A stretch of DNA of 33,050 bases from a bacterium (GTDB taxonomy: Bacteria; Krumholzibacteriota; Krumholzibacteriia; JACNKJ01): the NCBI GenBank assembly GCA_016873475.1, contig VGXI01000013.1:1-33050 (forward strand). The letters run 5' to 3'. The notes under the pieces were generated by a model. It had not been told where the DNA came from and ran no database searches. It was given only the letters and a program-made list of their open reading frames with translations. Both the position numbers and the translations under genes were made by a program. This document shows positions 2 through 11,889 of the stretch, in pieces (position 1 is the first letter of the stretch; every line of letters begins with the position of its first letter).

Positions 2-913
2 GGGACGCCGACGATCGCGCAGAACGGCATGGAGCTGGGCGACGGCGCCGCCGTGACGGCCACCGACTGCCAGGTGGGCGGCCACCACTGGATCGGCGTG
101 GGCTGGACCTCCACGGGTCTGCTCCTCATCGACGCCTCGCCCGTCACGCTGACGGACTTCGACTCCAGCGGCGACCAGGTCTGCGTCTACGCCTACGACA
201 GCGACCTCGCGCTGAACGGCGGCACGCTGCTGCACACCGGCAGCGACCCCGCCTACGATGGGCTGACGATGTACAGCAGCAGCGCCTATCCGGCGCCCGG
301 CGGGCCGCGCGTCGAGGCGCAGCCCTTCGCTGCTCGCGCGGACGGGGGCGGGCGGGCGGCCATGGCGGTCAGCCTGACGGGTGTCACGCTCACCGGCCAG
401 AACCGGCCCGGCAGCTGGGGGCTGGACGCCTACGCCGAGGCCGACCAGATCACGCTGGTCGCTGAGGGCTGCACGATCAGCGGCTTCGAGACCGGCGCCT
501 GGATGGAGGAGGCGGGCGGCGTGCTGCTCGCCGATCTCACCGACAACGCGATTCGGGACAACGTCGACGGCGTCTGGTCGAACACAGCGGCGCCCGTGGA
601 CGCCCGCCGCAGTTGGTGGGGGCATTTCACGGGCCCCTACCACACGACGCTCAACCCGGTCGGCCAGGGCAACGCGGTCAGCGACAACGTGCTCTTCGAG
701 CCCTGGACGGGCATGGCGGGGATCGCGCTGCTCCCAGCGAGCAGCGGACCGATCACCTGCAGCCAGACCAGCCTGCTCACCGTCCACTACGCGCCCGATC
801 CCGCGACGCCGGCCCTGCGCGGCTACGAGATCACGCTCGACCCGAGCGCCGAGCTCGGCATCGGCGCGGGTGACATCACGGATCTCGGCGCCCCCTCGAC
901 GGGCTCGGCATGA
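2..913 (+). CDS. Secreted right-handed beta-helix protein, 5'-truncated upstream part of a frameshifted gene
   Basis: The frame is open from the left edge of the window, so the true start lies upstream; the first internal ATG is at 29. The product has short repeating beta-strand turns typical of a parallel beta-helix. It also has the recognisable rung ending RRSWWGHFTGPYH followed by TLNP-GQGNAVSDNVLFEPW, which is common in secreted beta-helix proteins of candidate phyla. After about residue 240 a cohesin-like strand pattern begins (LLTVHYAPDPATPALRGYEITL). The frame then stops at a TGA (911-913) in the middle of that domain. The remainder of the same domain is encoded in frame +1 from 910. 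The two parts are most likely one gene broken by a missing base, either a true mutation or an assembly or sequencing error. Function is unknown; it is probably a cell-surface or extracellular structural or carbohydrate-related protein. Confidence 0.75.
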   Translation, partial: GTPTIAQNGMELGDGAAVTATDCQVGGHHWIGVGWTSTGLLLIDASPVTLTDFDSSGDQVCVYAYDSDLALNGGTLLHTGSDPAYDGLTMYSSSAYPAPGGPRVEAQPFAARADGGGRAAMAVSLTGVTLTGQNRPGSWGLDAYAEADQITLVAEGCTISGFETGAWMEEAGGVLLADLTDNAIRDNVDGVWSNTAAPVDARRSWWGHFTGPYHTTLNPVGQGNAVSDNVLFEPWTGMAGIALLPASSGPITCSQTSLLTVHYAPDPATPALRGYEITLDPSAELGIGAGDITDLGAPSTGSA

Positions 914-3297
914 GCGACTACTTCGACGTCATCGACAACGGCGACGGCACGATCACCGTCTCGGCGGCCATCCTCGGCGCGACGAGCGGCCTGACGACGG
1001 CGGCCGACCTCTTCACCGTCGCCGTCCACGGCGCGCAGACGGGCGCCGGCACCCTGGCGATCAGCGACTACAAGCTGCGCGACCTGGACAACGCCGATTT
1101 CTTCGCGACGGTCGCCGGCGCCGACGTGCTCGTCGACTGCACGCCGCCCGACGTGCCGGGACTCTTCCCCGAGCCGACCTACACGCAAGGCACGAGCAAC
1201 ACGCTCGCCTGGAGCGACATGGCGGCGAGCGGCGCCATCGAGTACCTGATCCAGCGCGCCGAGGACGCCGGCTTCACGCTCGGCCTGGCCGACAGCGGCT
1301 GGATCGCGGGCCTCAGCCACCTCTTCGGCGGGCTCGCGGACGGGCAGATCTACCACTACCGCGTCAAGGCGCGCGATGTACTGCTCAACGAGTCGGCCTG
1401 GTCGGCGGCGGAGTTCTCCACTCAGGACGACACGGCGCCGGTGACGGCGGTCGATCCGCTCGCGACCTACCAGGGCGCGGCGAGCTGGAACCTGAGCTAC
1501 GCGGCGAGTGACGCGACGAGCGGCGTCGCCACCGTGGAGCTCTTCTACCAGTTCGCGGGCGGCGCCTGGCAGTCGCTGGGCGCGGTCGGCGCCAGCCCCG
1601 TGAGCTTCATGGCGCTGGACGGCGACGGCCTCTACGGCTTCTACACGGTGGGCACGGATGGCGCCGGCAACGTCGAGCTCGCGCCCGCTGCGGCTGATGC
1701 GGAGACCACGCTGGACACGATGCCGCCGGCGGGCACCTTCGTCATCAACGCGAATGCGGCCTACACGAACACGCTCGCGGTGAGCCTGGACAGCGGCATC
1801 TCCGATCTCCACCCGCCGCTCGAGATGCGCTTCAGCAACGACGGCGTCGGCTTCTCGGCCTGGGAAGCCTACGCGGCGGCGCGCGCCTGGACGCTCGCGG
1901 CCGGCGCCGACGGTCCGCGCACGGTCTGGGCCGAGTTCAAGGACGCCGTGGGCAACGTCTACGCGGTGCAGGACGCGATCGTCTACGACGCCACGGCGCC
2001 CGCCGGCATCAGCGGCCTCGCGCTGGAGACCGGCCACCACAAGATCACGGTCACCTGGAACGATCCCAGCACCGCGGACCTCGCCGGGCTCGAGATCTAC
2101 CGCGGCGTCTACCGCGACGCGGCCTACGTCTCGGCCTACCCCGAGTACGACGACCTGCCCGGCGCGACGATGCCGGCGCGGCCCGCGAACCGCGCCGCCG
2201 CGTACGCCAGCCCCGAGTGGGAGCTGGCCGGCACGGCCCTGCCCGGCGACGAGATCTTCGTGGACGCGGGCGCGCCGCGCGGCGTCTACGTCTACCAGGT
2301 CTTCACGGTGGACGTGGCGCTGAACTACGGCCCGGGCCAGGCCGGACCGCCTTACCTGCCCACGCACGGCAAGGCCAACTACTGGCTCGGCGACGTGGAC
2401 GACTACGGCACGGGCGACGGCTTCTACGACGGCTTCGTCAACATCGGCGACATCACGGTGATGGCGGCGACCTTCGGCCTCTGCGATGGCGCCGGCGGCT
2501 ACAACAACGAGGTGGATGTCGGGCCGACGAGCAACAACAGCCCGCAGGGCATCCCCACCACCGATAGCTGCATCGACTTCGAGGACCTGATCATCATCGC
2601 GATCAACTACGGTGAGGTGGCGCCGCTGGCGACGCCGCCCGCAGGCGCGGGCGATCCGGTCTTCACCTGGTACCGCATCGACGAAAACACCTGGGGCTTC
2701 GGCTTGCTCGAGCCCGGCGTCGGCCTGCAGGGTCTGCGCCTTTGCGCGACGCTGCCGGAGGGGATGGCACCTCAGGTGACAGCCGGGCAGGGGCTGCTGG
2801 CGGCGGGCCGCCACTTCCTGGCGAACATCGAGGCCGGCGGTCTCGATGCGAATCTGGCGCTCCTGGGCACGCCTCACGCGTTCACGGCAGCCGGCGAACT
2901 CCTGCGCGTGACCCTGCCCGCGGGCGTCGCGCCCACGGATCTCGCCATCACGGCGCGGAGCACGGACAACGCCGCCCTCCACTTCACTCTCGACGATACC
3001 GCGATCCCCGAGCTGCCCACGGTCTACCGCGTGGCGCAGAACTTCCCCAATCCCTTCAACCCGAAGACGGCGATCCGCTTCGACCTGCCCGAGGCGCAGG
3101 TCGCGCGCGTGGCCGTCTACGGCGCGGACGGCCGCCTCGTCAAGCAGTTGCTCGACCGGACGCTGCCCGCGGGGTTCCATCAGGTGGTCTGGGACGGCAC
3201 CGACAGCGCGGGCGCCCAGGTCGCCTCGGGGGTTTACTTCTACAGCGTGCAGGCGGGGCCGCTCAGCGAGACCCGCAAGATGCTGCTGATGAAATAG
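910..3297 (+). CDS. Downstream part of the same secreted protein: cohesin-like remainder, FnIII-like repeats, dockerin-like domain, FlgD-type C-terminal domain
   Basis: This 795-codon frame overlaps the preceding stop as ATGA but has no convincing ribosome binding site or signal peptide, so 910 is probably not a genuine start. Residues 1-80 complete the cohesin-like domain left unfinished upstream. Fibronectin type III-like modules follow to about residue 490. Residues 494-568 contain two Asp/Asn-rich segments (GDVDDYGTGDGFYDGFVNIGD and a second one ending CIDFEDLIIIAINYG) that look like paired dockerin calcium loops. The last 90 residues, starting with YRVAQNFPNPFNP and ending SGVYFYSVQAG...KMLLMK, form the FlgD-Ig-like C-terminal domain used as a sorting or anchoring tag in FCB-type bacteria. 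Role inferred: a large modular surface protein. The protein to which it binds is not visible. Confidence 0.8.
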   Translation: MSDYFDVIDNGDGTITVSAAILGATSGLTTAADLFTVAVHGAQTGAGTLAISDYKLRDLDNADFFATVAGADVLVDCTPPDVPGLFPEPTYTQGTSNTLAWSDMAASGAIEYLIQRAEDAGFTLGLADSGWIAGLSHLFGGLADGQIYHYRVKARDVLLNESAWSAAEFSTQDDTAPVTAVDPLATYQGAASWNLSYAASDATSGVATVELFYQFAGGAWQSLGAVGASPVSFMALDGDGLYGFYTVGTDGAGNVELAPAAADAETTLDTMPPAGTFVINANAAYTNTLAVSLDSGISDLHPPLEMRFSNDGVGFSAWEAYAAARAWTLAAGADGPRTVWAEFKDAVGNVYAVQDAIVYDATAPAGISGLALETGHHKITVTWNDPSTADLAGLEIYRGVYRDAAYVSAYPEYDDLPGATMPARPANRAAAYASPEWELAGTALPGDEIFVDAGAPRGVYVYQVFTVDVALNYGPGQAGPPYLPTHGKANYWLGDVDDYGTGDGFYDGFVNIGDITVMAATFGLCDGAGGYNNEVDVGPTSNNSPQGIPTTDSCIDFEDLIIIAINYGEVAPLATPPAGAGDPVFTWYRIDENTWGFGLLEPGVGLQGLRLCATLPEGMAPQVTAGQGLLAAGRHFLANIEAGGLDANLALLGTPHAFTAAGELLRVTLPAGVAPTDLAITARSTDNAALHFTLDDTAIPELPTVYRVAQNFPNPFNPKTAIRFDLPEAQVARVAVYGADGRLVKQLLDRTLPAGFHQVVWDGTDSAGAQVASGVYFYSVQAGPLSETRKMLLMK

Positions 3298-3367: not shown

Positions 3368-4144
3368 ATGCGCAGCCTCGTTTCGGCTCTCCTGCTGATC
3401 CTCGCGACTGCGTCCGCCGGCCAGGCGGCCGTCGCGCTGCGCTTCGCCCCCGCGGATCAGACCGTGCCCACGGGAAACAACGCGACGCTCTCGGTCATGG
3501 TCGACGAAGCGATCGCCATCCGCACCGTCGAGCTCACGGTGACCTACGATCCGGCAATCCTGACCAGCCTCGAGGGCGATCCCGGCCAGCTCTTCCTCGG
3601 CTCCGGCTGCACTCTCTTCCCCGACTTCCAGGACGATACCCCGGGCCAGTGGTACGGCGCCTGCGTGGCCCTGGGCTTCAACTGCTGGGTGACCGGCCCC
3701 GGCGAGCTCTATCGCTGGACATTCAACGGCACGAACCCGGGCACCAGCCCGATCACGGCCATCCAGGTGCGCCTCTACGACCCCGCGGCCAACGTGATCG
3801 CGGACGTCACGCTGCCCCCCACGACGGTGCGCGTCGGCGAGGGCACGGCCAGCCCGCCGCCGCCGGCCCCCGGCCTCGGCCTCGAGCTCGCGCCCAACCC
3901 CTTCAACCCGAGCTGCCGGATCACGCTGAGCGGCGGCGCGGGTCCGGCCCGCCTCGAGATCTTCGACCTCGCCGGCCGCTGCCTGGCGGCGCCCTGGCAG
4001 GGCGAGCTCGCCGCCAGCGAGCGCTCCTTCACCTGGGAGGCTCTCGACGCGTCCGGCCGCCCGCTGCCCAGCGGGGTCTACCTCTTTCGCCTGAGCGACG
4101 GCACGGGCGCCGTCTGCACGCGCCGCGGCACTCTGCTCAAGTAG
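3368..4144 (+). CDS. Secreted cohesin-like domain protein with FlgD-type C-terminal domain
   Basis: The 258-residue product begins with a clear signal peptide (hydrophobic core up to about residue 20, cleavage near AGQAA). A GGAGGA ribosome binding site at 3357-3362 lies 5 nt before the ATG. Residues 21-155 look like a cohesin-type beta-sandwich: they open with a strand resembling FAPADQTVPTGNNATLSVMV and contain VELTVTYDPAILT, as in cohesins and related adhesion domains. After a Pro-rich linker (SPPPPAPG), the last 90 residues form a FlgD-Ig-like C-terminal domain with the motif LAPNPFNPSCRITL, ending SGVYLFRLSDGTG. It lies just downstream of a larger protein of the same type and may be co-secreted with it. 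A direct cohesin-dockerin partnership with that neighbour is possible but is only inference. Confidence 0.85.
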   Translation: MRSLVSALLLILATASAGQAAVALRFAPADQTVPTGNNATLSVMVDEAIAIRTVELTVTYDPAILTSLEGDPGQLFLGSGCTLFPDFQDDTPGQWYGACVALGFNCWVTGPGELYRWTFNGTNPGTSPITAIQVRLYDPAANVIADVTLPPTTVRVGEGTASPPPPAPGLGLELAPNPFNPSCRITLSGGAGPARLEIFDLAGRCLAAPWQGELAASERSFTWEALDASGRPLPSGVYLFRLSDGTGAVCTRRGTLLK

Positions 4145-4184: not shown

Positions 4185-4238
4185 GTCCGCGTTCCCTATC
4201 CGCTTCTCCCGCATTACCCTGGCCCAGGATGGATGACC

Positions 4239-5360
4239 ATGGCAGACAAGACCGCCGATCTCGCCGGCCCCGGCGTCAGCACCTACGAGGAGGTCGCCAA
4301 GGCCCTCCCCGTCGGCTACAGGTCCGTGCTCACCCCCAACGAGACGCAGAAGGCCCTCTACGCCGTCAAGCGCGCGATCGAGGACGGCCTGGCCCGCGAA
4401 CTCAACGTGATGCTGGTCCAGTGCCCGCTGATCCTCGAGAAGAGCAGCGGCATGAACGACTACCTGGACCGCGACGGCTCGCGCACCCCGGTGGACTTCC
4501 TGGCCGGCCTCGGCCTGCCCCAGCGCATCGAGGCGCAGGTCGTGCAGGCGGCCACCAAGTGGAAGCGCTTCGCGCTCAAGCAGTACGGCTGCCAGGTCGG
4601 CGAGGGCATCAACACGGACATGCGCGCCGTGCGCAAGGACTACTTCCTGGACCACGACCACAGCAGCTACGTCGACCAGTGGGACTGGGAGCGCGTGATC
4701 ACGCCGGCCGACCGCAACCTCGACTTCCTCACAATGATCGTCAAGAAGATCTGGAAGGTGCTCGTCGAGGCGGAGGAGCTGGCGCACGACATGTATCCCC
4801 AGCTCGACAAGTACGAGAAGATGCCGCGCGAGCTGGTCTTCCTGCACGCCGAGGAGATCCTCGAGCGCTACCCCGACCTCCCGCGCAAGCAGCGCGAGAC
4901 GAAGATCATCCAGGAGCACCCGGCGATCTTCATCTACGGCATCGGCCACACGCTGGACGACGGCTATCCCCACGAGATGCGCGCCGCCGACTACGACGAC
5001 TGGGTCACGCCCAGCGTCGTCAAGAAGGGCAAGCAGATGCACGGCCTCAACGGCGACATCCTGGTGTGGAACAAGATCACGCACCGGCGCCACGAGCTCT
5101 CCAGCATGGGCATCCGCGTCACCAAGGAGACGCTCAAGCAGCAGCTCAAGATCACGGGGCAGGAGCACTTCCTGAACCTGCCCTACCACAAGATGATCCT
5201 GAACGACGAGATCCCGCTCAGCATCGGCGGCGGGCTCGGCCAGAGCCGCATCTACAGCTACATCCTCAAGAAGGCCGCCCTCGGCGAGGTGAGCGTGACG
5301 ATCTGGCCCGAGCAGCTGCACAGGATCTGCGCGGAGAAGAACATCCACCTGCTGCGCTAG
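4239..5360 (+). CDS. asnA: Aspartate-ammonia ligase (ammonia-dependent asparagine synthetase)
   Basis: This enzyme makes asparagine from aspartate, ammonia and ATP in the cytoplasm. It has a class II aminoacyl-tRNA-synthetase-like fold. Family signatures seen here include KWKR followed by GEGINTDMRAVRKD, the highly conserved SYVDQWDWERV, ERYPDL, the block RAADYDDW, the segment LNGDILVWN, ELSSMGIRV, and the C-terminal SIGGGLGQSR. The product is 373 residues, somewhat longer than the 330-residue E. coli enzyme because of an N-terminal extension and small insertions. Three ATGs cluster at 4229, 4233 and 4239. AGGA at 4226-4229 is best spaced for 4239, which I chose; 4233 is in the same frame. 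The gene is convergent with the gatE-gatD operon, so it shares the theme of Asn/Gln and amide metabolism with its neighbours. Confidence 0.95.
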   Translation: MADKTADLAGPGVSTYEEVAKALPVGYRSVLTPNETQKALYAVKRAIEDGLARELNVMLVQCPLILEKSSGMNDYLDRDGSRTPVDFLAGLGLPQRIEAQVVQAATKWKRFALKQYGCQVGEGINTDMRAVRKDYFLDHDHSSYVDQWDWERVITPADRNLDFLTMIVKKIWKVLVEAEELAHDMYPQLDKYEKMPRELVFLHAEEILERYPDLPRKQRETKIIQEHPAIFIYGIGHTLDDGYPHEMRAADYDDWVTPSVVKKGKQMHGLNGDILVWNKITHRRHELSSMGIRVTKETLKQQLKITGQEHFLNLPYHKMILNDEIPLSIGGGLGQSRIYSYILKKAALGEVSVTIWPEQLHRICAEKNIHLLR

Positions 5361-5850: not shown

Positions 5851-7287
5851 TTACTTCCGGTGGTCGCGCACGAAGGCCTCGAGCTCGGGCAGCCCGCCCT
5901 GGAAGAGCAGGTACCCATCGTGGGTCTCGCGCTCGGTGATGTCGTCCGCCACCGGCGTTGTCATGATGCGCTTCAGCTCGGCGAGGTCGGCGCTCTGCCC
6001 CAGTGCCCAGCCCAGCTTCATGTAGGCCACCTCGGGCAGCATGTTAGCCAAGGGCACCACGCCCATCTCCATGATCTCGCGGCCCGTCTCGTAGACGTAC
6101 ATCTGCACGTAGCCCCAGAGCGTCTGCACGGTCATGAAGACGGCGACGCCCGCCGCGCGCGCCCGCTCGAGCGCCGGGTAGACCGGCCGGTTGACGTGCC
6201 CGAGCCCCGTCCCCGCGATGACGATGCCGCGGTAGCCGTGGTCGATGAGCGAATCGAAGATGTCCGCCTTCATGCCCGGGTAGTAGTAGACGATGGCGAT
6301 GCGGTCGTCGAAGACCGGCGTCGCCCGGAAACCGGCCAGCGCGGCCGCCTTCGCCTCGGCCCCCCGGCCCGCCACCGCCGTGCGGAAGCGGCGCTGGTTG
6401 TAGTCGCGGCGCAGGGGGCGCAGGCCTTCGCGGCTCACGGTGGCCAGTGGCGTGTCGCTGATCGTGCGGAAGGTGCTGCGGTAGCTCGAGTGCATCTTGC
6501 GCACGCGGGTGCCGCGGTGGAGCAGGCCGTACTGGTCGCTCGTCGGCCCGAACATGCAGACCATCACCTCGGCGATGTCGCCCTGGCCCGCGGTCACCGC
6601 GGCGTGGATCAGGTTCAGCGCCGCGTCCGAGCTGGGGCGGTCGCTGCTCCTCTGGCTGCCGACCATCACGATCGGCACCGGCGGGTTCTGGAGCATGAAG
6701 CTGAGCACGGCGGCCGTGTGGGCCATCGTGTCCGTCCCGTGGCCGATGACGATGCCATCCACGCCCTCGCGGATCGCCGCCTCCACCGCGCGCGCAGTGC
6801 CGATCCACTGCTCGGGTCCCATGTTCTCGCTGAAGACGCCGTAGAGCTTCTCGGTCTCGAGATTGCAGACCTCGGCCAGCTCGGGCACCGAGCCGTAGAG
6901 CTCCCCCGGCGTGAAGGCCGGAATCACGGCGCCCGTGCGGTAGTCGAGGCGGCTCGCGATCGTGCCGCCGGTGCCGAAGAGCCTGACGAAGGGCTTGCCC
7001 GCGTCGCGCGGGAAGGCCCTCTCGGGCACCTTGTAACGGGCTTCCTTGCGCCCCACCTCGACGAGCCGCGCCACGGTGTCGACCTGCAGGCCGACGTTGT
7101 AGCCACTGGCCAGCTTGAGGACGAGGTGCTCGGCATCGGCCGTTTCGCTGCGCGGCAGGATGATGCCGCGGAAGTCGCCCTGGCTGGTCTCGGCCTCGAC
7201 CTCGCTCCAGACGCCGACCCCGTGCCGCTCGAGCAGCGCGCGCCCAGCGCCGCGATAGCCCTTGAAGCGCTCCCCGCTTTCGCTCAT
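5851..7287 (-). CDS. gatD: Glutamyl-tRNA(Gln) amidotransferase subunit D (archaeal type)
   Basis: GatD releases ammonia from Gln or Asn and passes it to GatE, which converts Glu-tRNA(Gln) to Gln-tRNA(Gln). The 478-residue product has the two-part GatD layout. An N-terminal Tudor-like domain (about residues 20-85, including RGIILPRSETADAEHLVLKL and SGYNVGLQV) precedes an L-asparaginase-type amidase domain. The first catalytic-Thr motif FGTGGTIAS is at residues 104-112 and the second motif HGTDT at 183-187, followed by MAHTAAVLSFML. The N-terminal domain separates GatD from plain type I/II asparaginases. The start overlaps the gatE stop as ATGA, showing translational coupling. The family is regarded as characteristic of archaea, so its presence among clearly bacterial genes is unusual. 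An unrelated asparaginase role is unlikely given gatE next door. Confidence 0.9.
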   Translation of the reverse strand: MSESGERFKGYRGAGRALLERHGVGVWSEVEAETSQGDFRGIILPRSETADAEHLVLKLASGYNVGLQVDTVARLVEVGRKEARYKVPERAFPRDAGKPFVRLFGTGGTIASRLDYRTGAVIPAFTPGELYGSVPELAEVCNLETEKLYGVFSENMGPEQWIGTARAVEAAIREGVDGIVIGHGTDTMAHTAAVLSFMLQNPPVPIVMVGSQRSSDRPSSDAALNLIHAAVTAGQGDIAEVMVCMFGPTSDQYGLLHRGTRVRKMHSSYRSTFRTISDTPLATVSREGLRPLRRDYNQRRFRTAVAGRGAEAKAAALAGFRATPVFDDRIAIVYYYPGMKADIFDSLIDHGYRGIVIAGTGLGHVNRPVYPALERARAAGVAVFMTVQTLWGYVQMYVYETGREIMEMGVVPLANMLPEVAYMKLGWALGQSADLAELKRIMTTPVADDITERETHDGYLLFQGGLPELEAFVRDHRK

Positions 7288-9230
7288 CGGCGTCGCCCTC
7301 CCTTCGGCGCGGGGACCGGCGCCCCGCGCGTCGCGGCCGCGAGCTGCCCGCGCAGGCGCGCGCCGGCGCAGCTCACGCCCAGGCTCTCGCGCAGGCGCCC
7401 GAGGCGATAGCGTTCGAGGCTTTCGCCCGCCAGCGGTCGAGCCGGCGGCGGCAGGGCGGCGAGCGCGCTCGCCAGGCGCGCCGCCAGGGCCGCGTCGTCG
7501 AGTGGCGGCGGCGGCACGGGCCGCTCGCGCCCGCCGCTGCGCGCCCAGCGCGCGAGGGCGGCGCGGTCCGTCTCCCGCGGCGCCGTCGCCAGGAACTCCG
7601 GTAGCCAGTCGAGGCCCACCGCGTCGGGGAGACGCAGCCCCTCCCGCTCGAGCGAGCGCCAGTGGGCCGTGAGCGCGAAGGCCAGGCGTCGCAGCGCGGC
7701 CGCATCACCTTTCAGCGCGCCCCTCAGGGCGAGAAAGCTGCCCGCTCGCCCCTGGCGCTGGAGCTGGCCGGCCAGTTCGGTGCCGAGGCCCGCGGCGGCG
7801 AGCGCGGCCAACTCATCCCAGGGGCGCGGCGGCAGCGCGGCGCGCAGGGCCTCCCAGTCCCGCGTAGGCAGGGGCCGCGGCGGCAGGTCGGTGTCGGGGT
7901 ACATGCGGTCGGGTCCGGGCAGCACGCGCTCGAAGCGCGTGGTGCCGTCCGGCTGGGCCTGGCGCGTCTCGCGCGGCACGCCGGCCAGCGCCTCCTGCGC
8001 GCGCAGCTCGATCTCGCCGAGGGCGGTCTCGAGGTCGCGCGGCCCGCCCCAGACCATCAGCATCGGCGTGTCGTCGCTGACGCCGAGGATCTGCCGCACC
8101 CGGTGCCACTCGCTCCAGGTCGGCCCGTCGTCCAGCTGCTCGCTGGAGACCAGGTTCGGATTCCGATCCAGGCAGGCCACCACGCGCACGCGGTCCCGGA
8201 ATTCGCCGAGGAAGCGCAGGCCGGGCTGCACCTCCCGCCGCAAGACACCCTCGAAGCCCGGCAGAGCGATGACACCGAGCCGGTCCCCCCGCGCGAGCGC
8301 CTTCTGCACCGGCCGGTACTGGCAGTTCTTGAACAGGCCCGTCACCTCGGCGCGCAGGCCCTGGTAGCCGACGGCCGGCAACCCGCGCCCCGCCAGGATC
8401 TCGCGGATCTCGAGCAGGCTCTTCTGACGCAGGGCCTCGTTGTGCACGAGCCGGCCGATGGCCGGAATGCGGCTCACGCCCTTGATCTCGATGCGCGTGC
8501 CCCCGCGCACGCTCACGTTCACGTCCTGCCGGGCAGCGCCAGCGCCGCGGCGCACCTTGCCGGTGGCGCGCGTGAGCCGGCGCACGGCCTGCGCCGCCGC
8601 CTCGACCGCGGCCGGCGTGTGGAGCGCCGGCGCCGTGACGACCTCGACGAGCGGCATGCCCAGGCGGTCGGTGCGGTAGCAGCGCAGGTGCCCCTGGTCG
8701 GAGAGCTCACGGCTCGAGTCCTCCTCGATGCTGAGCTGGAGGATCGCGAGCGGCACACCGTCCACCGGCAGCTCGCCCTGGACGCCGAGGATCGCCGTGC
8801 GCTGGAAGCCGGTCGGGATCGAGCCGTCGAGGTACTGCTTGCGCATCACGTGCAGCTCGCCCACCGGTTGCAGGCCGAGCAGCAGGGTGATCTCCATGGC
8901 GATGCCAAGCGCCTCCTGGTCGATCTCGAAGGGCGGTGCGTCGTCCATCTCGTAGGTGCAGACGCTCTCCTTGTTGAGCCGGTAGAGGATCTCCTTGCGC
9001 GTCTTGAACTCCATGAGCGCCGTGCCGTCGTACTCGCCGAGCTCGGAGAGCGTGGGCCGCATGTGGCGGAGGATCTCGGCGTCGAAGGCGTCGCTGTAGC
9101 GGCCGGCCGGGCAGCGGCAGAAGAGCTTGCGGCGCGTCGAGAGCTGGACGTGCACCTCCAGGCCGGCCTTGAGGCCCAGGGCGCTGTAGTCGTCGGCGCT
9201 GAGGGTGCCGTACTCGGGCAGCTGGGACAT
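7284..9230 (-). CDS. gatE: Glutamyl-tRNA(Gln) amidotransferase subunit E (archaeal type)
   Basis: GatE binds Glu-tRNA(Gln), phosphorylates the glutamyl group with ATP and amidates it with ammonia from GatD. The 648-residue product starts with the GatB/GatE kinase cradle: GLKAGLEVHVQLSTRRKLFCRCP, then VCTYEMDD and IEEDSSRE. The pattern RQDVNVSVRGGTRIEIKGV is the typical GatB/E block. About residues 290-440 form the AspRS-like GAD insertion found in GatE but not GatB. The C-terminal part is the helical and tail region. I start it at 9230 (MSQLPEYG) because GGAG precedes it at a suitable distance and it is close to the putative promoter; an in-frame upstream ATG at 9266 lies on top of the predicted -10. 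It forms an operon with gatD. Confidence 0.92.
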   Translation of the reverse strand: MSQLPEYGTLSADDYSALGLKAGLEVHVQLSTRRKLFCRCPAGRYSDAFDAEILRHMRPTLSELGEYDGTALMEFKTRKEILYRLNKESVCTYEMDDAPPFEIDQEALGIAMEITLLLGLQPVGELHVMRKQYLDGSIPTGFQRTAILGVQGELPVDGVPLAILQLSIEEDSSRELSDQGHLRCYRTDRLGMPLVEVVTAPALHTPAAVEAAAQAVRRLTRATGKVRRGAGAARQDVNVSVRGGTRIEIKGVSRIPAIGRLVHNEALRQKSLLEIREILAGRGLPAVGYQGLRAEVTGLFKNCQYRPVQKALARGDRLGVIALPGFEGVLRREVQPGLRFLGEFRDRVRVVACLDRNPNLVSSEQLDDGPTWSEWHRVRQILGVSDDTPMLMVWGGPRDLETALGEIELRAQEALAGVPRETRQAQPDGTTRFERVLPGPDRMYPDTDLPPRPLPTRDWEALRAALPPRPWDELAALAAAGLGTELAGQLQRQGRAGSFLALRGALKGDAAALRRLAFALTAHWRSLEREGLRLPDAVGLDWLPEFLATAPRETDRAALARWARSGGRERPVPPPPLDDAALAARLASALAALPPPARPLAGESLERYRLGRLRESLGVSCAGARLRGQLAAATRGAPVPAPKGGRRR

Positions 9231-9548: not shown

Positions 9549-10598
9549 ATGCTGACAAAGCTCAAGCTCGCCGCCGTTCTCATGCTCATGCTGGTCGCGA
9601 CCTCGGCGTTCGCCGTCCAGCGCGTGGTGCTCGTCGAGTACTTCACGAACACTAGCTGACCCTACTGCCCGACTGCGGACGCAGTCTTTGACGCTTTCGG
9701 CGACAATCACACGGACGACGAGGCCGCGCTCGTCTGCTGGCACATGAGCTGGCCCGGCTACGATCCCTTCTACCAGCACAACACCGTCGACAACAACGGC
9801 CGCCGCAGCTTCTATGGCATCAACGGGATACCGGCCTGGAAGATGGACGGTTACCTGAACCCCAATGCCGGCACGGTGAATGCGCTCTACGCGAGCGAGT
9901 CGGCCATTCCGACCCCGGTGACCCTGACGATCGTCGGCGCCTACGACGACGTCACCGGCTACGTTCAGTACACGGTGACGGCTTCCACGAACGAGACGCT
10001 GCCCACCGGCAGCTACCGCATCTTCGTCGCGCTGACGGAAACCGACATCTACTTCCAGGGCTCCAACGGCGTCCTCTGGCATCCGGACGTGATGCGCGAC
10101 TGCTTCCCGACCCACGCCGGCACGGACGTCACCTTCAGCGGAGGTTTCCCCCAGGTCGCAACGGTCTCGGGCGACTTCACGCTGAACTCCATCTACAACT
10201 GGAACAACTGCCGTCTCGTGGCTTGGGTGCAGGACGTCACTGGCCAGAAGAAGGTCCAGCAGGCGGTGGCGGCCTTCGTGAGCGGTCTCGACCTGACGGA
10301 CGCCCCCGCGGCGCCCGCCCGGGCGATGGCCCTCGGCGCGAACTACCCGAATCCCTTCAACCCCAGCACGACGATCCCAGTCAGCGTCGAGCGCACCTCG
10401 GCGGCGCGGCTGGACATCATCGCGCCTGACGGCCGGCTCGTGCGCACCCTTCACGAGGGCGAGCTGCCTGCGGGCACGCGCGAGTTCAGCTGGGACGGCA
10501 CCGCGGCCAACGGCCAGGGCGTGGCCAGCGGCGTCTATCTCGTGCGGCTGCACAGCGCGGATGGCCTGCAGAGCCGCCATCTGGTCCTCATGAAATGA
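9549..10598 (+). CDS. Secreted thioredoxin-like selenoprotein (UxxC) with FlgD-type C-terminal domain, paralogue 1
   Basis: One reading frame of 349 residues runs from ATG 9549 through an in-frame TGA (9657-9659, codon 37) to a normal TGA stop at 10596. A signal peptide occupies residues 1-22. The sequence VVLVEYFTNTS-U37-P-Y-C40-P follows, in the position of the CxxC of thioredoxin-fold proteins of the Omp28-related type. Later conserved blocks are DPFYQHNTVDNNGRR and YGINGIPAW, the latter with a likely cis-Pro. A beta-rich middle domain follows, and the last 90 residues are a FlgD-Ig-like sorting domain (GANYPNPFNPSTTIP). A SECIS-like hairpin lies just after the TGA. The redox function is inferred from UxxC; the substrate is unknown. 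Reading TGA as a stop would leave a bare signal peptide and an orphan domain with no start site. The next gene repeats the whole arrangement. Confidence 0.85.
9657..9686 (+). promoter_or_regulatory. In-frame UGA (Sec37) and SECIS-like hairpin, paralogue 1
   Basis: After TGA 9657-9659, GACTGC (9671-9676) pairs perfectly with GCAGTC (9681-9686) around the loop GGAC. The loop begins 18 nt after the UGA and opens with G. A small apical loop with a guanosine among its first two bases, 16-37 nt from the UGA, fits the general bacterial SECIS model recognised by SelB. Confidence 0.75.
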
Positions 10599-10701: not shown

Positions 10702-10728
10702 AGGGGGGGCCGCTGGGCTCCCCCTTTT
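10702..10728 (+). terminator. Intrinsic terminator after paralogue 1
   Basis: A 10-bp stem (10702-10711 with 10716-10725, one G-T pair) around a GCTG loop is followed by a run of T. It is nearly identical to the terminator after paralogue 2 at 11959-11985. Confidence 0.8.
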
Positions 10729-10833: not shown

Positions 10834-11889
10834 ATGAACCGTCGCGCTCTCTGTCTGAGCATCCTGGCGTTGCTCGCCCTTGCGCTGCCAGCCAGCGCCG
10901 TCGAACGCATCGTCCTGCTCGAGAAGTTCACGAACACGGCCTGAGCGGCCTGCGGATCGGCGGAGCCGATCTTCGTGCAGTTCGTCCTGGACCACCCCGA
11001 CTGCGTCGCCTTCATGCCGCATGTCAACTGGCCCCAAAGCAACGACCCCTTCTACGTCCACAACACCGCCGACAACAACGGCCGCCGTGCGCTCTACGGC
11101 GTCAATGCCGTGCCCTTCGAGATCCTCGACGGCGTGCTCGAGCCGGTCTACTTCTACACCTACGCCCGCATCCTGGCCGCCTACAACACGCGCAAGGCGG
11201 TGCCGACCGACGTCACGCTGAGCTACACGGGCCTCTACGTGCCCAGCACAGGTCAGGTGGACTTCACCGTCACGGCCTCGACGACCAGCGCCCTGCCCGC
11301 GGGGGACTTCCGCCTGCACATCGTCCTCACCGAGAGCGGCATCTTCTACGACGCTGCCAACGGGATCGACTACCACGAATTCACGCTGCGCAAGATGTTC
11401 CCGACCTTCAACGGAACGAGCGTGAGCTTCAGCGGCGGCTTCCCGCAGACGGCGCAGGCCTCGACGAGCTTCACGCTCAATCCGGCCTACGTGCCGGCCA
11501 ACTGCAAGCTCGTCTACTTCCTGCAGAACCACACGACGAAGGAGGTCTTCCAGGCCGGCCAGATCACGCTGGACGACATCCAGGACCTGACGGACGTCGC
11601 CGAGCTGCCGCTGCGCCTGCGCCTGGGGGCGAACTACCCCAATCCCTTCAACCCGTCCACGACCATTCCCCTCAGCCTCGATGCCGAGGCCAGCGTGCGC
11701 CTGGCGGTGCACGACGCCGCGGGCCGGGAGCTGCGCGTGCTGCACGACGGCGCGCTGCCGGCCGGCAGTCGCGAGTTCCACTGGGATGGGCGTGACGCGG
11801 CAGGTCAGACCCTGCCCAGCGGCGTCTATCTGTTTTTTGTGACCGGCGCCGGCGAAACCGCCGGCCGGCGCGCGCTCTTGCTGAAATAG
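10834..11889 (+). CDS. Secreted thioredoxin-like selenoprotein (UxxC) with FlgD-type C-terminal domain, paralogue 2
   Basis: The frame of 351 residues runs from ATG 10834, preceded by the strong ribosome binding site AAGGAGG at 10822-10828. It continues through TGA 10942-10944 (again codon 37) to a TAG stop. The signal peptide ends near ASA (residue 22). The sequence then reads IVLLEKFTNTA-U37-A-A-C40-G, aligned with paralogue 1 without gaps from the start codon. Shared blocks include NDPFYVHNTADNNGRR, the YGVNAVPF segment, SFSGGFPQ, and the C-terminal GANYPNPFNPSTTIP domain. The cysteine at position 40 is kept, while the two residues between U and C differ (AA against PY). As before, the frame is open on both sides of the TGA and nothing else in the gene is broken. 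The inferred role is an extracytoplasmic thiol or selenol redox protein. Confidence 0.85.
10942..10971 (+). promoter_or_regulatory. In-frame UGA (Sec37) and SECIS-like hairpin, paralogue 2
   Basis: After TGA 10942-10944, GATCGGC (10955-10961) pairs perfectly with GCCGATC (10965-10971) around the loop GGA. The loop starts 18 nt after the UGA, exactly as in paralogue 1. CTGC (10950-10953) can also pair with GCAG (10977-10980) as a lower stem. The stem sequences of the two genes are unrelated, so the fold and spacing, not the sequence, are conserved. Confidence 0.75.

Follow-up and report, generated by a model that had tools for sequence, protein, structure and literature searches.

A conserved SECIS-like hairpin follows the in-frame UGA codons of two tandem Omp28-like genes in a Krumholzibacteriota genome

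The stretch of DNA analysed here (33,050 nucleotides from an uncultured bacterium; hereafter ‘the window’) carries two tandem genes on its forward strand, each containing an in-frame UGA. With this codon read as selenocysteine, gene 1 forms an open frame of 349 amino acids (9549–10598, + strand; stop codon TGA at 10596–10598), in which the UGA (9657–9659) is codon 37, within the sequence FTNTS-U-PYC. Moving along the product from its N-terminus, we see a putative Sec-type signal peptide (MLTKLKLAAVLMLMLVATSAFA; 9549–9614), assigned from sequence features only; a thioredoxin-fold domain (residues 23–121; 9615–9911); an Omp28 region that takes in the end of the thioredoxin fold and a beta domain (residues 88–244; 9810–10280; Pfam PF11551, 42.6 bits, above the gathering cut-off of 34.9); and a C-terminal FlgD_ig / Por_Secre_tail-like domain (NYPNPFNPST…; 10344–10586) scoring 44.7 bits against FlgD_ig and 27.4 bits against TIGR04183, the type IX sorting tail, for which the cut-off is 23. 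A terminator-like hairpin lies beyond the gene (10702–10725, + strand), but is weak as a prediction, with two such hairpins found versus 1.4 expected from shuffles.

Gene 2 (10834–11889, + strand; 351 amino acids with selenocysteine, again at position 37) is a tandem paralogue, preceded immediately upstream by a Shine-Dalgarno-like sequence (AAGGAGGA) and sharing 46% identity with gene 1 across a 332-residue alignment that extends to either side of the UGA (10942–10944; FTNTA-U-AAC). Its product also begins with a signal-peptide-like segment, matches Omp28 at 42.7 bits against the same cut-off of 34.9 and, like that of gene 1, scores above the Pfam cut-off for FlgD_ig; its TIGR04183 score, 18.7 bits, falls below the cut-off of 23. 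Ordinary annotation would split or truncate both genes at the UGA, and the list of open reading frames shows them as pieces only.

Upstream, the window encodes two secreted-type proteins with FlgD_ig / type IX-like tails (910–3297 and 3368–4144, + strand), as well as archaeal-type Glu-tRNA(Gln) amidotransferase subunits, here in a bacterial genome: GatD (5851–7287, − strand; 478 bits, cut-off 324) and GatE (7284–9230, − strand; 390 bits, cut-off 319.6), adjoined by an AsnA-like gene (4233–5360). No Rfam family exceeds its gathering score within the window.

An AlphaFold2 model of the gene 1 product (mean pLDDT of 82) positions U37 and C40 at the start of a helix within a thioredoxin fold, which is followed by the beta domain; the UGA occupies the place of the first cysteine of a thioredoxin-type CxxC motif, giving an active site of U37-P-Y-C40. 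The closest solved structure is that of HBP35 (PDB: 5y1a; Z 24.7, rmsd 2.8, 224 aligned residues) followed by 2axo (Z 20.0), with ordinary thioredoxins (Z 9–11, aligned to residues 23–121) and the Omp28 domain of 2r2c (Z 9.4) some way below. Foldseek also matched Kir channels, but at a TM-score of about 0.3 or below these hits reflect nothing more specific than a beta sandwich and were set aside.

Just 3′ of the UGA, and within the coding region, each gene contains a hairpin. That of gene 1 (9671–9686, + strand) is formed by a 6-bp stem, GACTGC (9671–9676) pairing with GCAGTC (9681–9686) through Watson-Crick pairs alone, closed by the loop GGAC (9677–9680); reading from the UGA, the sequence of 9657–9686 is TGA, CCCTACTGCCC, then stem, loop and stem. 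The gap between UGA and stem is 11 nt and the loop begins at the 18th nucleotide past the UGA (17 nt between), all exactly as the initial annotation had described. Hairpin 2 (10954–10972, + strand) has an 8-bp stem (GGATCGGC/GCCGATCT; seven Watson-Crick pairs and one G-U) and the loop GGA (10962–10964), held at an identical distance from its UGA. Both are shorter than the SECIS element of E. coli fdhF.

Hairpin 1 is both the minimum-free-energy and the centroid structure predicted for 9657–9695 (-9.5 kcal/mol). The expectation that it would be more stable than shuffled sequence is borne out, if barely, by simple shuffles (mean -6.1 kcal/mol, z -1.8; nine of 200 at least as stable) but fails once the null is a synonymous recoding of the peptide, which yields an equal or better hairpin with p 0.21 when drawn with the codon usage of the window and p 0.40 with that of gene 1 itself. 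Four of the six pairs involve codon positions 1 and 2, and so are dictated by the protein sequence, leaving only pairs 15–30 and 18–27 (numbered from the T of TGA) in which wobble position meets wobble position; for this reason 21–40% of synonymous recodings fold equally well, and the stability of hairpin 1, being unexceptional by this measure, proves little on its own. For hairpin 2, the same null gives p 0.0016.

Measured against the constraints compiled for bacterial SECIS elements (PMC13188914, Fig. 2A), both hairpins conform to the canonical model, and the earlier proposal that spacing and loop G follow bacterial rules holds for every constraint listed. The model allows an apical loop of 3–9 nt on an upper stem of 4–16 bp (loop 4/stem 6 in gene 1, loop 3/stem 8 in gene 2); a G within the first two loop positions (satisfied by GGAC and by GGA); 16–37 nt from UGA to loop (17 nt in both genes); and a free energy at or below -7.5 kcal/mol (bare hairpins of -8.1 and -11.2 kcal/mol, respectively). 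The GGA-triloop class to which hairpin 2 and its relatives belong sits at the lower size limit of this model.

The initial annotation had suggested aligning relatives and looking for compensatory changes, and here the evidence is far more telling. A profile search of 80 Krumholzibacteriota genomes identified Omp28-like genes in 38; a search with gene 1 alone had retrieved no relatives, probably because its U was back-translated as Cys. Amongst the distinct sequences, the two from the window included, the column aligned to U37 is occupied by UGA in 37, by Cys in 39 and by Ser just once. A perfect stem of 5 bp or more, with the loop placed as in a SECIS element, is present in 29 of the 37 UGA genes and absent from all 39 Cys genes (p 1e-13 by the Mann-Whitney test, a value that overstates the independence of what are related sequences). 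The same association is apparent within a single cluster: on contig C43 of genome G002, three tandem paralogues read UGA–Cys–UGA, with 7-bp hairpins in both UGA genes and none in the Cys paralogue that lies between them.

Covariation points the same way. Hairpin 1 falls in a class with 4-nt loops, in which the stem is 100% paired and compensatory changes occur at three of its six pairs; none of 500 shuffles did as well, and versions of the stem slid along the alignment were only 28–61% paired. In the 3-nt-loop class of hairpin 2, double changes are seen at two of seven pairs. Many relatives share an identical 16-nt core, however, such that few independent changes underlie the covariation. Amongst these is the wobble pair 18–27, C-G elsewhere and U-A in the window, where its two bases come from seldom-used codons: ACT accounts for only 3% of Thr codons and GCA for only 2% of Ala codons.

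One UGA subfamily departs from this pattern. Its genes, mostly of the type xxATWU (L074, L078, L079, L084, L087, L096 and L100–L102), often have no good hairpin 17 nt from the UGA, and several carry a qualifying one at 32–33 nt instead; the SECIS element of this subfamily may therefore differ. Elsewhere in the genome of the window, two more Omp28-like genes contain an in-frame UGA (C48, 5257–5979; C149, 1263–1955), and two paralogues have no stop (on C40 and C219). One homologue (L033, at about 1549) has Ser at both active-site positions (SGPS) and, judged by this motif, is probably not redox-active.

The genome also encodes a complete set of components for selenocysteine decoding, all exceeding their respective cut-offs: a tRNA-Sec with anticodon UCA (72.7 bits), SelA (440 bits), SelB (332 bits) and SelD (338 bits). 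The SelD gene (L038) has an in-frame UGA of its own, in the context ASAGG-U-SAK, and its product is likely itself a selenoprotein. Across the phylum, tRNA-Sec was detected in 69 of the 80 genomes (E ≤ 1e-9), with two distinct candidates in G073 (C21 and C32; 71.4 and 58.7 bits). Four genomes that contain UGA-bearing Omp28 relatives (G037, G045, G051 and G055) gave no tRNA-Sec at this threshold; these are probably gaps in draft assemblies. G037 is listed as 100% complete.

Taken together, an exchange of UGA with Cys at a single column, a conserved and covarying hairpin confined to the UGA genes, complete selenocysteine machinery, and a thioredoxin fold whose UxxC lies where a helix begins are all established by computation, and uphold the SECIS-like reading first offered for hairpin 1. 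It is the comparison across relatives, rather than the stability of any one hairpin, that settles the matter. We are thus highly confident that 9671–9686 is a bacterial SECIS element serving the decoding of UGA 9657–9659 as selenocysteine, with a product predicted to act, after export, as a thiol-disulfide oxidoreductase, and that the same applies to gene 2.

The best-surviving alternative, although we think it highly improbable, is that the hairpin has been conserved for another cause, such as translational pausing or a constraint on the protein segment SAE/TAD, with recoding directed by a different element, perhaps one further downstream. The amino acids that fix four of the six pairs lend this some weight, as does the finding that in some relatives the best qualifying hairpin is at 24–33 nt; set against it are the equal loop distance in both window genes and most of their relatives, and the covariation of wobble positions, exemplified by rare ACT and GCA codons that pair with each other.

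Slightly less probable still is that the UGA represents a true stop, or an error of sequencing or assembly, the hairpin being a by-product of the GC-rich codons for PTADAV. The synonymous-codon null for hairpin 1 is as this would predict, but the tandem paralogue likewise has UGA as its codon 37, coding similarity between the two genes persists 3′ of it, and dozens of genes spread over many Krumholzibacteriota genomes show UGA at this column; nor would it account for Cys homologues that have no such hairpin, or for the intact selenocysteine machinery. Reading of the UGA as Trp or Cys, through a reassigned code or near-cognate readthrough with no SECIS element involved, can be dismissed as very unlikely: UGA reassignment does occur in other lineages, yet residues other than UGA at this column are Cys (39) or Ser (1) and never Trp, gene 1 itself terminates at a UGA, and the genome contains both the selenocysteine machinery and a UGA-containing SelD.

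Returning to the SECIS reading, we would envisage the following sequence of events. Hairpin 1, within the mRNA of gene 1, would be bound by SelB in complex with GTP and Sec-tRNA(Sec); whilst holding the hairpin, SelB would deliver the charged tRNA to the UGA at 9657–9659, which would then be decoded as selenocysteine. The resulting protein would comprise a signal peptide, a thioredoxin fold bearing U37-P-Y-C40, an Omp28-type beta domain and a type IX-like sorting tail; gene 2 would be recoded in the same manner via hairpin 2. The insertion of selenocysteine itself, and export of the products to the cell surface, are what we infer from these features, with redox activity suggested by analogy to a Cys-containing structural relative, HBP35, whose thioredoxin activity depends on its two active-site cysteines (PMC2907840).

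The genome encodes SprA of the type IX translocon (381 bits, or 492 with its neighbours; cut-off 200). More tentatively, and on balance doubtfully, we raise the possibility that both proteins are selenocysteine oxidoreductases exported by type IX secretion to the cell surface to act extracellularly, and this in a phylum most of whose genomes have a tRNA-Sec and in which several subfamilies of selenocysteine-containing Omp28 proteins are missed by current profiles.

The roughly 37 UGA-containing Omp28 relatives extend the known selenocysteine/Omp28 family across Krumholzibacteriota, and in doing so provide a pointer towards exported selenocysteine redox enzymes. They also offer a natural comparison of selenocysteine and Cys paralogues, including the one cluster in which the two alternate. 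Our literature search retrieved no paper joining a selenoprotein with Omp28, and none that substantively links Krumholzibacteria with selenoproteins; for type IX secretion together with selenoproteins, the single hit was a feeding trial in rabbits.

Comparison with known systems places the two proteins close to a described kind. A hypothetical selenoprotein, GOS_C, with UxxC in a thioredoxin-like fold, was represented by 74 sequences in the 2008 Global Ocean Sampling study (PMC2398784), and has since been equated with NCBIfam NF045500, ‘Omp28-related selenoprotein’ (PMC13188914). This family shares with the window proteins the UxxC in a thioredoxin fold, the exchange of selenocysteine with Cys and a SECIS-like element, and is the top NCBIfam match of both (3e-17 and 9e-14). 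The match is, however, confined to profile positions of about 28–276 out of 377, and its scores (63.1 bits for gene 1, 51.6 bits for gene 2) lie far below the curated cut-off of 200, so that both go unrecognised by NCBI's selenoprotein model; seven of nine relatives tested match at 39–70 bits and the other two gave no match. On these profile scores, the window proteins fall outside NF045500 as NCBI defines it and are best described as divergent, previously unannotated siblings of the known selenocysteine/Omp28 kind, rather than as members. Both qualify as Omp28 under Pfam PF11551, with the selenocysteine active site preceding the region that Pfam covers. In architecture, the nearest counterpart is HBP35 of Porphyromonas gingivalis (5y1a; PMC2907840), which likewise combines thioredoxin, beta and C-terminal export domains, but at just 12% identity and with Cys48 and Cys51 where the window proteins have selenocysteine and Cys.
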